IMG/VR virus record: IMGVR_UViG_3300046006_005023
Location: 1 to 27,767 of that record
Source of the DNA: a virus
Length of the DNA: 27,767 bases
Strand: one strand, 5' to 3'
Numbering within the stretch: the stretch's first letter is position 1; each line of letters starts with the position of its first letter. This document shows positions 11,645 through 16,205 of the stretch, in pieces. A program made the position numbers and the translations under genes. The notes beneath the pieces are model-generated. The model saw only the letters and a program-made list of their open reading frames with translations. It searched no databases and was not told where the DNA came from.

Positions 11645-11838
11645 ACAAAGAAGATCCAAAACCAGAAGAAGAAGTTTGCTTCAATTGCAAGCATTTATTT
11701 TGGGGTATTGGTCTTGGTCTTGGCTTGAGATGTAGCAATGCATTCAACAAAAAGGCTGATCAAAAAGAATTTTTACCACTTGTTCCAAGCAGAAGACATA
11801 CTTGTGAATATTTTTCAAATAAAAAAAATCATTCATAA
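11641..11838 (+). CDS. Small Cys-containing protein, probable metal binder
   Basis: This 65-residue protein has a CxxC pair near the N-terminus (VCFNCKH) and two further cysteines (RCSN and HTCEYF), a spacing that could bind one zinc or iron centre. The ATG overlaps the STAS stop (ATGA), so the two are likely co-translated. The 3' end overlaps the convergent metallopeptidase gene by 10 nt. No family name can be given. Confidence 0.7.
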   Translation: MNKEDPKPEEEVCFNCKHLFWGIGLGLGLRCSNAFNKKADQKEFLPLVPSRRHTCEYFSNKKNHS

Positions 11839-13124
11839 TCTTTCAAATTATAAATATTGCAATTTTTATCTATCCACAACTTTGTTCCATCGGCAGTTAA
11901 AAACCAATGCCATTTTTCTGGTTTATCTACTTTTATAGTATCTCCAAATCCATCCGTTAAAACAAACACATAAGGATGCTTGGACATATTATTTTCTATT
12001 TCTTTTTTAATGTAGTTTTTAATTACACTGAATGAAGTTCCTCCGCCACCATATATTTTATTTGATTTCAATGATGTTTCTTGAACTTTTGTATCAAAAC
12101 AAAAAAGTCGTACTTTGAATTTTTGCGAGTCTAAACTAGAGGCACACTTAAAAAACCTATCTTTTAATCCAAAACAACTTCCAGATGTGTCCATAAAGAA
12201 AAAAACATTAATTTTGTCTTCTTCTGTAATTCTTTGATATGTTTCTATTTCGCATGGTAAAAATAAATTATCATCAATGTTTACATATCTTCTAGATTTT
12301 CTAAGCCATTGCTCTGCGGAACCATAACAATCTTTTGATTGTTTAATTTCCCAAGATCTTATAATGGTTTCCCATTTCTTTTTTATTTGTTTCGATAAAG
12401 AACCTAAAGAGTGCCACCAACCAACACCAGATCCAGCAGGACTTATGTCTTGATTTTTTTTAGCAAAATTAGCTATAGCTTCTATTTCGTCTTTACTTAG
12501 ACTTGATATTATTTTCCCAACAAATTTGTCGTAATCTTCTTCGGACAATTGCGAATGATCATCTAGACAACCTTGATTTGGATTGCTTGCTTGATTTGAA
12601 TGACCATCACCATATTTTTCATTATATTTATTGAAATAAAATTCAAAACATTCGTCTTCTGGATATTTCTCATCTGGAAATATATTGTCAACCCAACACA
12701 AAATACTTTTTTCATTATTTTCTGAATTTAAATTTATAGCATTACGAATTCCTACTTCTATATTATTTTTTTCAAATCCAAAATTATTTATCAAGCTATG
12801 ATTTACGACAATATCAAGACATATGTTTGCTGTTACTTTTTTTTGTATGTTGAGATTTTTTGATCTTTTGCCATGATTTAGTATTACATGTAACATTTCG
12901 TGACATATTACGAATAGCTTTGAATCTAATGATAGGTTAGACCAGAAGATGGGATTGAAAGAAAATTGTATATAATTTCCATTACGATCAAATTCAATAG
13001 CTGCCGTTTCAATCTCATCTTTAAAAATTGGTTTGCCAACAGCCCACAACTTATAAAAGATTGCATGATGTTGTTCTAATTTGTTGGATATTTCCAACCA
13101 TTCATCGGGATTTATCTTATGCAT
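11829..13124 (-). CDS. Metallopeptidase-like plus VWA domain protein (DUF2201 type)
   Basis: This 431-residue protein joins an N-terminal zincin-like domain with H75-E-x-x-H79 (ICHEMLHV, extra His84) to a C-terminal von Willebrand A domain. The VWA part has a complete metal-ion-dependent adhesion site: D312-x-S314-x-S316, T363 (GGGTSF) and D391-G (LTDGFGD). A charged, Gly/Asn-rich linker lies between. Such proteins are typically encoded beside a MoxR AAA+ ATPase, exactly as here: the ATPase gene is upstream with a 1-nt gap. MoxR-VWA pairs act as chaperone or metal-loading systems in bacteria. Whether the HExxH site cleaves peptides is unknown. No good Shine-Dalgarno precedes the ATG, so coupling to the ATPase gene is likely. 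Confidence 0.8.
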   Translation of the reverse strand: MHKINPDEWLEISNKLEQHHAIFYKLWAVGKPIFKDEIETAAIEFDRNGNYIQFSFNPIFWSNLSLDSKLFVICHEMLHVILNHGKRSKNLNIQKKVTANICLDIVVNHSLINNFGFEKNNIEVGIRNAINLNSENNEKSILCWVDNIFPDEKYPEDECFEFYFNKYNEKYGDGHSNQASNPNQGCLDDHSQLSEEDYDKFVGKIISSLSKDEIEAIANFAKKNQDISPAGSGVGWWHSLGSLSKQIKKKWETIIRSWEIKQSKDCYGSAEQWLRKSRRYVNIDDNLFLPCEIETYQRITEEDKINVFFFMDTSGSCFGLKDRFFKCASSLDSQKFKVRLFCFDTKVQETSLKSNKIYGGGGTSFSVIKNYIKKEIENNMSKHPYVFVLTDGFGDTIKVDKPEKWHWFLTADGTKLWIDKNCNIYNLKDYE

Positions 13125-13125
13125 A

Positions 13126-14172
13126 TTAATCTTCAGATAAAAATTTTGCCATGTCGGGATTTTGAGTCATAAATCGTTTAATTTTATTTGACATCTTGTA
13201 GTCAGTTTTTGCATTTAATATTTCTTTACAAATTTCCATATATGTTTTTTCAGAATTGACATTAGACATAACATGTTTTGCTAATTTTTCATTAGAAGTC
13301 ATTAATGATATGATTTTCTCTTTAGGAACTAATGGCAAAAACCAATCGCAAAGAGTTTTGCTTTCTATGATATATTTTGATGCTGAAGAAAAATTGTTCT
13401 CATTTTTTAGCCAAATTTTAGCACCACCAGAATCTTCTTCTGACATAAATCTTGCTAATTTATCACTTGTAGGACCGTCTTTTAAAGCCTGTAAAAGCTT
13501 CGAAACACCACTTTCTTGTGGCAAATGATCTCTTAGATCTCCTTGTCTAGAAAATGAGTTTAAAGCGTATTCTAATCTTCTAGGAGATACTAAATTTTTG
13601 GTGGAATCATCCAATTCTGACCACCAAGCAATTGCACTGTCCGCAATGGTCTTTCCAAACTTAACTCTAAAGAACTCAACATCTGGCTTGTAATCAATTT
13701 TTCTATGAACTTCAAAACGATCCATTTGAGCCATATCAAGTTTTTCAACATCGTAAGACTCTGGATCATCTTCTGGATTTATCGCAGCCCAAACCATCCT
13801 TAAATTTGGAAATTTTTCTCCATTTATGCTTTTGAATTGAATCAATTCGAGAACTGCATTTCTAACTTTCTTTGGAGACCTGTTGAATTCATCCATGAAA
13901 ATTGCTTCTACTTCACCAAGAACAAAGTCCAAAGGACGAATCATCTTTATGTAACTTACAGATTGATCGCCTATAACTTTTGTTGCTTCTTTTGGAATAC
14001 CAACAAAATCAGTCCAAGGGTCCATAGTGGCTGCACTAAAGTATCTCCACTTCAAACCATTTCTTTCAAATGCTTTTTTTATGAGTGCGGTTTTCCCAAC
14101 ACCATGCTTTCCAATCATCAAAACATTTTGATTGTATTTTATCCAATTGTCTAACTTGTAATCTAAGTTCAT
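13126..14172 (-). CDS. MoxR-type AAA+ ATPase
   Basis: This 348-residue ATPase has Walker A G21-K-H-G-V-G-K27-T28, Walker B with D94-E95 (IFMDEFNR), a sensor-1 asparagine N132 (AAINP) and an MDRFEVHRKI segment typical of MoxR proteins. It likely remodels or activates a target together with the VWA partner encoded 1 nt downstream. GGAGAAGG precedes the ATG; this site sits in one arm of a small GCCTT/AAGGC inverted repeat, so access could be modulated. It follows the minus-strand virion genes by 61 nt. Confidence 0.88.
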   Translation of the reverse strand: MNLDYKLDNWIKYNQNVLMIGKHGVGKTALIKKAFERNGLKWRYFSAATMDPWTDFVGIPKEATKVIGDQSVSYIKMIRPLDFVLGEVEAIFMDEFNRSPKKVRNAVLELIQFKSINGEKFPNLRMVWAAINPEDDPESYDVEKLDMAQMDRFEVHRKIDYKPDVEFFRVKFGKTIADSAIAWWSELDDSTKNLVSPRRLEYALNSFSRQGDLRDHLPQESGVSKLLQALKDGPTSDKLARFMSEEDSGGAKIWLKNENNFSSASKYIIESKTLCDWFLPLVPKEKIISLMTSNEKLAKHVMSNVNSEKTYMEICKEILNAKTDYKMSNKIKRFMTQNPDMAKFLSED

Positions 14173-14233: not shown

Positions 14234-14977
14234 TCATTCGAAAATTTGGATTTGATTTTTCTCAGAGATGAATGTGTTTTCTGCATATTGTAATTCAAAC
14301 CACACATTGTATATTCCAGAATCGTAATCTGATGTGTCAATAAAGTAATACCCATACATTTTTTCACGATAATCCACAAGTTGCCGATCTACTACCAATC
14401 GGAGATCTTTTTCCTGTGGGACACAATCCCCGCAGTTTTTTTCGATTGAAATACGCAAATCTGAGACTATGGCGAGATTTTCGTAATATGGTAGTAAATC
14501 GGCTCCTCGTGGAACATTTGGTGAAATTTGGATCACCAAATATCTTTTAGACCCTTTTACAATTCTGTTGGGTCTAAATCCAAATGAAAAATCATAAACA
14601 GGCGGAACAGGACTTGTGAACCACAAGTTGGGATAAATTCTAAATCTATTTTGAATTTCCGCCAAAGAACAATGGTCGCTTTCAAAGCTTACTGCCCACA
14701 CATCAACATAATCTCCAATTGTGTAAAGTGGAGAATCTGCAGATATATCGACATAATAAGATCCAGCAGATTCAGAAATCACATCGGCACCATCTATGGT
14801 TGCAACTAACCTTCGACCATCAGGATTAGCTTGTGATATTTCGTTAGGATCAAGTGTGTAAATGTCCACTTTTTGAATGTCTTGTAAATTGGCTCGATTG
14901 TTGCTATTGTAGGAGAATAGACGCAATCTAATCGTGTCGTTACAAGTTGGATTTTGCAATCTTTCTTTTAGTGGCAT
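14234..14977 (-). CDS. Probable virion structural protein, unknown family
   Basis: This 247-residue protein is predicted mostly beta. Repeated strand patterns (GSYYVDIS, YVDVWAVSF, GIYNVWFELQY) suggest two or three Ig-like or jelly-roll domains, with a middle segment around SPVPPVYDFSFGFRPN. It starts 2 nt after the stop of the -1 frameshift ORF, with AAGAAGG as ribosome-binding site, so it probably belongs to the same late tail/baseplate transcript as the gp26-like gene. No family was recognised. The 61 bases downstream hold no gene. Confidence 0.65.
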   Translation of the reverse strand: MPLKERLQNPTCNDTIRLRLFSYNSNNRANLQDIQKVDIYTLDPNEISQANPDGRRLVATIDGADVISESAGSYYVDISADSPLYTIGDYVDVWAVSFESDHCSLAEIQNRFRIYPNLWFTSPVPPVYDFSFGFRPNRIVKGSKRYLVIQISPNVPRGADLLPYYENLAIVSDLRISIEKNCGDCVPQEKDLRLVVDRQLVDYREKMYGYYFIDTSDYDSGIYNVWFELQYAENTFISEKNQIQIFE

Positions 14978-14979
14978 AT

Positions 14980-15207
14980 TTACCTTCTTTTACTACTAGA
15001 TTTTCTTCGCTCTGCTTCCATTGCTTGATTTTCTTTTTCTTTTTGCTCTATAAATCTCTGCACCATCCATTGCCTGATATTGATTGGCATGAACAATGTC
15101 TTCTGCATGTCTTGGTGCAGATGATATGAAAAGAAAAATATTTCTTCTAGGAGGTTTTTTCCAAGGGTTATGCTTGGGTGTTCTTTTCCTTCTTCCTCCG
15201 GGGGAAG
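14980..15207 (-). CDS. -1 frame extension of the gp26-like gene (probable frameshift product)
   Basis: This 75-codon ORF in the -1 frame is entered by re-reading C15207 after the slippery heptamer, giving a fusion of 333 + 75 = 408 residues. It has no ATG, GTG or TTG at its 5' end; the first ATG is 34 codons in, with no Shine-Dalgarno. The sequence looks real: an acidic start, a helical LLEEIFFF segment, then MPINIRQWMVQRFIEQKEKE and a Lys/Arg-rich end. It fills the otherwise empty 190 bases and stops 2 nt before the next start. This mirrors the G/GT tail-assembly-chaperone arrangement of lambda. A small internally started 42-residue protein from the ATG at 15108 is the alternative. Confidence 0.75.
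   Translation of the reverse strand, partial: LPPEEEGKEHPSITLGKNLLEEIFFFSYHLHQDMQKTLFMPINIRQWMVQRFIEQKEKENQAMEAERRKSSSKRR
15150..15199 (-). other. Possible RNA structure downstream of the slippery site
   Basis: In minus-strand RNA, GGAGG (15199-15195) begins 7 nt after the heptamer and can pair with CCUCC (15154-15150). Nested inside is a CCAAG/CUUGG hairpin (15177-15173 with 15165-15161, 7-nt loop containing the zero-frame stop). A spacer of this size is usual for stimulatory structures, but the stems are only 5 bp. Confidence 0.4.
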
Positions 15208-16205
15208 AAAAAATTTGCTTCAAGAGGCAAATCGATTGAAAATTCTGCAGAACAACTTGGGCAATTAATTTCTACATTTGTATCTACACCAAATGGAGGC
15301 TCGTTGATGATGCCACGAATATAAGAAACATCATTGATTGGAAGGTTCTTCAATAAAATTTGAAGTTCCATCTTATCGGTGATTCCATCAATTTCTTCTA
15401 ATAGTTGAGCAGTTCTATAAGTCAATGTATCATCAGTAGCATTATCGCCAAACATCTTCATTCTGCGTTCACGATATTCATTGATTTCTTGCTCATCACG
15501 ACCAGTTGAAAGGCGATACTTGAATCGATATTTTGAATTTGGCAAAACATCTTCAAGAATTGGTCCAAAATCATGAGGACATTGATTTACAAACAAAGCA
15601 CTTAAATCAACATTTGTGCTGAATTTGGCACCGCATTCGGGACACTTTACTTCGACATCGTAGCTATGAGAATAAGAGATGCCACGAAGATAAAGTAATA
15701 GATAGGTTCGATCTACAGTGAGTAAATTTTCTGCCTTAAAATCTTCTTTAATGCATTTTTGAAAGATCATGTTGATTGCTTGTCCTTTACGGACAAATCT
15801 AGGAGTCGCTAAAATTTGCTCTTCTTCGCCTGTCATTGGACGAATATGAATAATGCCATCTGCAGGTCCATTTGTACCATCATAGAATCTTCCTTTTGAT
15901 GGTAATTGCAATTCTTCATATTGTGCAAGTGATCCCTTGAGGGATTCAAGAATTTCTTTAAGTCTTCCACTTTGATTGTTTTGCGGATATGACGATGGTG
16001 CTTTAGCCACACTAGGAGCATTTGTATTGCCATTATCCCTATCTCGCAAATTTGCAAAAGATTGATTGGGTTTTTGCAAGGTAGATTGTGGAGCATCTTG
16101 ATTGCCTTGACTTCCTTGATTTTTTAAAACTTGCAAAAATTCTTGTGGTACATTCCCTTGAATGTTGATTGGGCTTCCTTCTTTGTTCAAATTACTATCT
16201 GCCAT
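15168..16205 (-). CDS. 26: gp26-like baseplate/tail assembly protein (zero-frame product)
   Basis: Residues about 1-80 are Gln/Asn/Ser-rich and probably disordered. From about 90 the protein follows the T4 baseplate gp26 family pattern, with LPSKGRFY, the IRPMTGEEEQILATPR motif and a helical core. Two CPxC pairs (C188/C191 and C315/C318) could form a zinc ribbon. At 345 residues it is longer than T4 gp26 (208). GGAG lies 7 nt before the ATG. Near the 3' end codons N331-F332-F333 hold an in-frame T-TTT-TTC heptamer; a -1 shift there would replace the last 12 residues with 75 others. The family assignment is from memory of its motifs. Confidence 0.75.
   Translation of the reverse strand: MADSNLNKEGSPINIQGNVPQEFLQVLKNQGSQGNQDAPQSTLQKPNQSFANLRDRDNGNTNAPSVAKAPSSYPQNNQSGRLKEILESLKGSLAQYEELQLPSKGRFYDGTNGPADGIIHIRPMTGEEEQILATPRFVRKGQAINMIFQKCIKEDFKAENLLTVDRTYLLLYLRGISYSHSYDVEVKCPECGAKFSTNVDLSALFVNQCPHDFGPILEDVLPNSKYRFKYRLSTGRDEQEINEYRERRMKMFGDNATDDTLTYRTAQLLEEIDGITDKMELQILLKNLPINDVSYIRGIINEPPFGVDTNVEINCPSCSAEFSIDLPLEANFFFPRRKKEKNTQA
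15207..15213 (-). other. Programmed -1 frameshift slippery heptamer T-TTT-TTC
   Basis: Read on the minus strand, the zero-frame codons are AAT-TTT-TTC, so T TTT TTC fits the X-XXY-YYZ rule in the right frame. It lies 12 sense codons before the zero-frame stop and opens exactly the frame that continues to 14980. Confidence 0.78.

Follow-up and report, generated by a model that had tools for sequence, protein, structure and literature searches.

The gp26-like tail gene of an IMG/VR virus (record IMGVR_UViG_3300046006_005023) almost certainly yields two proteins from a single message via a -1 slip near its end, and on comparative evidence the programmed -1 frameshift can be regarded as real with high confidence. 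The gene very probably encodes a tail assembly chaperone (TAC) and would yield a short form of 345 residues (TAC-N) and, by the slip, a long form of 408 residues (TAC-NC). The whole stretch of DNA that was analysed, i.e. positions 1 to 27,767 of the record, is referred to as the window.

Gene layout and conservation of the slip site

A previous sequence-only reading had proposed a frameshift in this gene; its coordinates hold, and the strand, which had not been given, was added here. According to a check of the ORFs and their translations, the whole locus lies on the minus strand, where the gp26-like ORF runs from 16205 to 15168 and encodes 345 aa. The gp26-like identity was confirmed by a match of the zero-frame protein to the PF12322 (T4_baseplate) profile with 70.7 bits against a cut-off of 24.5; the protein also matches PHROG 150, which stands for baseplate hub. 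The same strand carries the genes for a gp15-type tail sheath stabiliser, the sheath and the tube, and these surroundings are those of a T4-like phage with a contractile tail. The features of the locus are as follows.

15168..16205, minus strand: gp26-like gene, predicted zero-frame product TAC-N, 345 aa (PF12322 E=1.8e-19, PHROG 150 E=2.5e-24)
15213..15905, minus strand: PF12322 (T4_baseplate) domain by profile match, residues 101-331, its end coinciding with the slip site
15207..15213, minus strand: slippery heptamer T_TTT_TTC in the zero frame, invariant in 44/44 relatives
15210..15216, minus strand: A_AAT_TTT, in frame and overlapping the heptamer, which may be a second slip site and is lost in 5 relatives
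15168..15206, minus strand: dual-coded stretch, in which the zero-frame tail FPRRKKEKNTQA and its stop overlap the start of the -1 ORF
14980..15207, minus strand: -1 frame ORF of 75 codons plus stop with a start-less head, encoding a T-like C-terminal domain (pN/pS, AlphaFold, alignment)
14234..14977, minus strand: next gene, function unknown, 247 aa, starting 2 nt past the stop of the -1 ORF

The 3' end of the gene reads ...GCA AAT TTT TTC TTC CCC CGG AGG ... TAA, and the codons N331-F332-F333 (AAT TTT TTC) indeed place T_TTT_TTC in the zero frame, 12 codons 5' of the TAA. Residues 328-345 of the zero-frame product have no confident structure in an AlphaFold model that is of low confidence overall (pTM 0.38). 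Two CxxC motifs of zinc-ribbon-like appearance (residues 188-191 and 315-318) are nearly invariant across the window group, and several distant gp26 homologues contain similar Cys pairs. A usable in-frame slip site combined with a -1 extension of at least 60 codons was found in one of the 27 window genes checked, namely in the gp26-like gene only.

Conservation of the heptamer and of the -1 ORF in homologous phages had been put forward as a check of the proposed frameshift. Searching IMG/VR with the zero-frame protein returned 45 loci (52-100% identical), one of which breaks off before the 3' end, leaving 44 assessable relatives with 30 distinct 3' ends. All 44 retain a homologous -1 ORF and, 10-14 codons ahead of the stop, an in-frame TTTTTTC. 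Among the 30 distinct 3' ends, 85 codon columns are invariant at the amino-acid level and only two of these are free of synonymous variation, both of them heptamer codons (TTT 30/30, TTC 30/30; Phe codons gene-wide: 205 TTT and 232 TTC); the sequences are not mutually independent, and the robust part of this result is the comparison of the heptamer with its neighbouring codons. The heptamer is therefore constrained. The codon right after it is TTC in 29/30, and the overlapping A_AAT_TTT is absent from L019, L020, L025, L035 and L040 and is therefore not essential. The gene thus combines what is expected of a TAC, a conserved in-frame slip site near the 3' end and a conserved, start-less ORF in the new frame.

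A downstream RNA structure had been suggested as a stimulator of the slip:

15150..15199, minus strand: GGAGG/CCUCC pairing (arms 15199-15195 and 15154-15150) with a nested hairpin, unsupported as a conserved signal (z = -0.91)

The MFE fold contains the pairing, but 36 of 200 shuffled sequences reach a fold as good as that of this region, and most relatives lack the pairing; on the basis of the z value and this absence we discarded the hairpin as a stimulator. No downstream stimulatory stem-loop of the canonical -1 frameshifting cassette emerged from folding and from the relatives, the modelling covering structures other than pseudoknots. Upstream of the heptamer, inspection of the window by eye revealed no Shine-Dalgarno-like element, and Rfam returned two weak matches only, far below the gathering scores. 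The heptamer may suffice for the shift, or it may act together with signals that escaped recognition here.

The -1 frame domain and its relation to T4 gp26 and gp51

The translation of the -1 frame is LPPEEEGKEHPSITLGKNLLEEIFFFSYHLHQDMQKTLFMPINIRQWMVQRFIEQKEKENQAMEAERRKSSSKRR, with the stop at 14982..14980, and the predicted slip product would comprise 333 + 75 = 408 residues with the junction peptide ANFFLPPEEEGK. As originally described, the 75-codon ORF fills the 190-nt gap, stops 2 nt before the next ATG (14977) and has no ATG, GTG or TTG at its head; its first in-frame start codon follows 105 nt past the start of the heptamer and falls inside the conserved domain. Across the window group, a start codon is hardly ever located ahead of the domain, and the first one usually follows at least 84 nt past the heptamer start, within a conserved helix.

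The pN/pS ratio of the -1 ORF (0.32, compared to 0.27 for gp26) indicates purifying selection, although both values are only rough because the synonymous sites are close to saturated. Beyond the zero-frame stop, the differences by codon position (0.34/0.20/0.51) display the coding periodicity of the -1 frame, and AlphaFold predicts three helices for the domain (pLDDT 84). Since T runs are common, with 37 copies of TTTTTTC on both strands of the window, one could regard the heptamer as a product of chance or of an assembly artefact and the -1 ORF as the decayed remnant of a fusion or of a separate gene. The probability of this is negligible, as the 44 relatives, which derive from many assemblies, all keep the heptamer and the -1 ORF and the latter is under purifying selection; conservation already refutes such a reading.

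In Pfam, the -1 ORF matched Tma16 below the cut-off (E=0.0012), which we took as a chance match of a charged helix. A fold search with the C-terminal domain gave no significant match, its weak matches including a Microbacterium tail assembly chaperone and gp51 of cyanophage P-HM1, and a PDB search with the same domain returned nothing useful.

Both T4 gp26 (E=8.8e-64) and T4 gp51 (E=3.9e-52) match PF12322, and gp51 extends about 48 residues beyond this domain, which represents an extra C-terminal domain. With hhalign, the -1 domain of the window was related to the domains of the Microcystis-phage group (96% probability) and of the SP-15 group (94%), and a merged profile of these matched a merged profile of the jumbo, cyanophage and gp51 C-terminal domains with 94.5% (E=8e-8), shuffled controls staying below 1%. 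A direct hhalign comparison of the window domain with the gp51 C-terminus was not significant alone, and the link runs through intermediates; independently of this profile chain, PHROG 634 unites the gp51 C-terminus with the cyanophage downstream ORF. A gp51-type C-terminal domain on the long form is thus indicated by the profile chain and PHROG 634 (the cyanophage link), not by a direct pairwise match, and we assign the -1 ORF to the domain family of the T4 gp51 C-terminus on these profile comparisons.

The number of PF12322 genes was counted in relatives and named phages, the window itself being a genome fragment. One such gene is present in the 225- and 254-kb relatives (G001, G002), 121Q, RaK2, PA5oct, GAP32, Atu_ph07 and LR756511, and two are present in T4 and RB43; two genomes of the Microcystis/Flavobacterium type fall below the PF12322 threshold, yet are related by protein search. 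This pattern is as expected if frameshifting and duplication are alternative routes to a short and a long chaperone. Because of the PF12322 kinship with gp26/gp51 and the one-gene versus two-gene pattern, the best reading of the product pair is that of two tail assembly chaperones, TAC-N and TAC-NC, which correspond to lambda G/GT, a function that is likely by family and layout. The lambda-like mode of working that had been suggested for the gp26-like frameshift is strongly supported by the conservation and by the relation to T4 gp26/gp51.

We infer that the ribosome itself shifts. Most ribosomes would end at the zero-frame stop and release the 345-residue TAC-N (gp26), while a smaller share, holding tRNA-Phe on U UUU UUC in both the P and the A site, would move one base back, read past the stop and append the 75-residue helical domain to give the 408-residue TAC-NC. 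If lambda gpG/gpGT is a guide, the tape measure protein would be coated by numerous TAC-N and a small number of TAC-NC molecules, the latter would recruit the tail-tube protein through their additional domain, and both proteins would leave before the virion is completed.

In SP-15, LIS04 and immuto, the gp26 homologue is encoded between the tail tube gene and an annotated putative tail or tape measure gene. The interval from tube to tape measure is the classic chaperone position, and in SP-15 and LIS04 the gene is located directly upstream of the tape measure region. In the window phage, the gp26-like gene adjoins neither the tube gene nor any gene recognised as encoding a tape measure protein, and G001, the 225-kb relative, likewise yielded no recognisable tape measure gene. 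Downstream of the chaperone locus, the window carries a MoxR-like AAA ATPase gene and a DUF2201 metallopeptidase-like gene (11829-14172, minus strand), and a similar-looking pair follows gp26 in G001 (77891-80850).

Proposed routes to the long product in other lineages

TTTTTTC followed by a -1 ORF was also found in LR756511, 121Q, RaK2, Atu_ph07, PA5oct, GAP32, Serratia BF, Rhizobium IC12 and cyanophage Sf-FS3 (L147), and variant heptamers occur in Stenotrophomonas RAS14 (TTTTTTT) and Rhizobium RL38J1 (TTTTTTG). In the cyanophage-type gp26 (L158-L237; Sf-FS3), TTTTTTC stands one codon before the stop. Over the 64 distinct genes of the cyanophage-type IMG/VR loci, both heptamer codons are invariant (TTT 64/64, TTC 64/64). 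Here the downstream ORF, which is annotated as a gp51 gene in its own right, has an ATG about 5 nt past the start of the gp26 stop codon; therefore, both routes are open in this type. These relatives lend some support to the idea that the downstream ORF of the window is likewise a separate gene, whose translation would start by re-initiation or by coupling once the gp26 stop is reached, without any fusion. We consider this very unlikely, since the window group hardly ever offers a start codon before the domain and since such translation would leave unexplained why the heptamer codons are frozen, in the cyanophage-type group as well as here.

In the Microcystis/Flavobacterium-phage lineage (L060-L139; L053, L056), the +1 frame encodes the homologous domain, and the 3' end of gp26 carries a nearly unchanging TTT-TTT-TGG-CCT (TTT 70/70, TTT 72/72, CCT 73/73 among consensus-matching residues). 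This is probably a separate recoding site, which operates by +1 or by -2, as the frame alone fits both. The domain is also in the +1 frame in Streptococcus GXN1 (L049), Bacillus SP-15 (L050) and Listeria LIS04 (L052), which share NCC-CGA-TTY near the end of gp26; that NCC-CGA is the shift site of the SP-15 group is a guess, because three sequences only are at hand. Downstream of the gp26 homologue of Alishewanella phage Slicko01 (L055), no T-like domain was recognisable in any frame, and this phage is a possible exception to the pattern.

These lineages also bear on whether RNA polymerase rather than the ribosome slips, adding a U in the T6 run such that the mRNA is already in the -1 frame and the same fusion protein results. 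The run is a homopolymer, and another gp26 lineage combines a T6-T8 run with a +1 frame, both of which would suit transcriptional slippage. However, T6 is shorter than the runs that transcriptional slippage usually needs in bacteria, slippage needs neither the C after T6 nor the X_XXY_YYZ register, yet both are invariant, and the SP-15 type site of GXN1 has no T run at all. We therefore regard transcriptional slippage as unlikely and retain ribosomal frameshifting as the preferred reading.

A quick tree of the N-terminal domains, unrooted and with long branches and low identity, requires four mode changes, the minimum possible being three. In this tree, the two-gene T4 group forms one cluster beside the -1 phages of the cyanophage and Rhizobium types. 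A -1 ancestor is thereby suggested, not shown, because of the missing root, the long branches and the low identity. We lean slightly towards the view that, throughout the gp26 superfamily, one conserved protein pair is made by four interchangeable routes, i.e. -1 at T_TTT_TTC (window group, jumbo, cyanophage and Rhizobium phages), +1/-2 at TTT-TTT-TGG-CCT (Microcystis/Flavobacterium phages), +1 at NCC-CGA (SP-15 group) and duplication (T4 and its kin), T4 being derived from a frameshifting ancestor.

Comparison with known tail chaperone systems

Frameshifting in tail chaperone genes is well known, and the window gene is a member of that known kind. It resembles lambda gpG/gpGT and relatives (Levin 1993; Xu 2004; reviewed in PMC5009743) in that one gene with a -1 heptamer near its 3' end yields a minor product with an extra C-terminal domain. 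In contrast to lambda, the heptamer is a different one, no recognised tape measure gene directly follows the window gene, and Pfam and PHROG scans gave no match of the window proteins to lambda families. The E/E+E' pair of P2 is said to use a U_UUU_UU-type heptamer in a contractile-tail chaperone gene (Christie 2002), which is similar to the one described here, but its protein is small and apparently unrelated.

According to a review, tail-chaperone frameshifting is conserved among long-tailed phages, T4 excepted (PMC5009743). The TAC of Pakpunavirus Adele and the Andersonviridae, with a conserved -1 shift at the poly-T motif GTTTTT (PMC12846349), is alike in being a myovirus system with a poly-T -1 shift and the same kind of conservation argument, but belongs to other phage lineages. 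Vladimirov, Gautam and Davidson 2022, as cited in PMC10885494 and PMC12846349, identified tail-chaperone genes in T4-like phages, and their title proposes a mechanism other than frameshifting. According to PMC10885494, this work describes some T4-like phages as having, besides a short gene, a long fusion gene that is encoded separately, and PMC12846349 attributes to it the finding of poly-T -1 signals in T4-like TAC-N genes. Going by these two accounts, part of the pattern may already be reported there, and the earlier statement that such frameshifting had not been described for gp26-like proteins is only partly right in view of the credited poly-T signals. In the open literature, with most subscription journals outside the search, we found no description of the +1 groups or of the single-gene/two-gene contrast.

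What makes the gene worth following is that it is of the gp26 type and that the route changes inside a single family. T4's own protein family makes wide use of frameshifting, which runs in both directions and joins domains that are homologous on either side, and thus offers a natural series for how recoding sites arise, switch direction and give way to gene duplication. It also corrects annotation, as many genomes of jumbo phages, of cyanophages and from metagenomes leave the -1 or +1 ORF unannotated or list it as a hypothetical protein of its own. The closest comparison is T4 itself, in which, as here, a PF12322 protein occurs with and without a C-terminal helical extension; T4, however, encodes the two forms in two paralogous genes on opposite strands, whereas the window phage would obtain both from one gene and a -1 shift.
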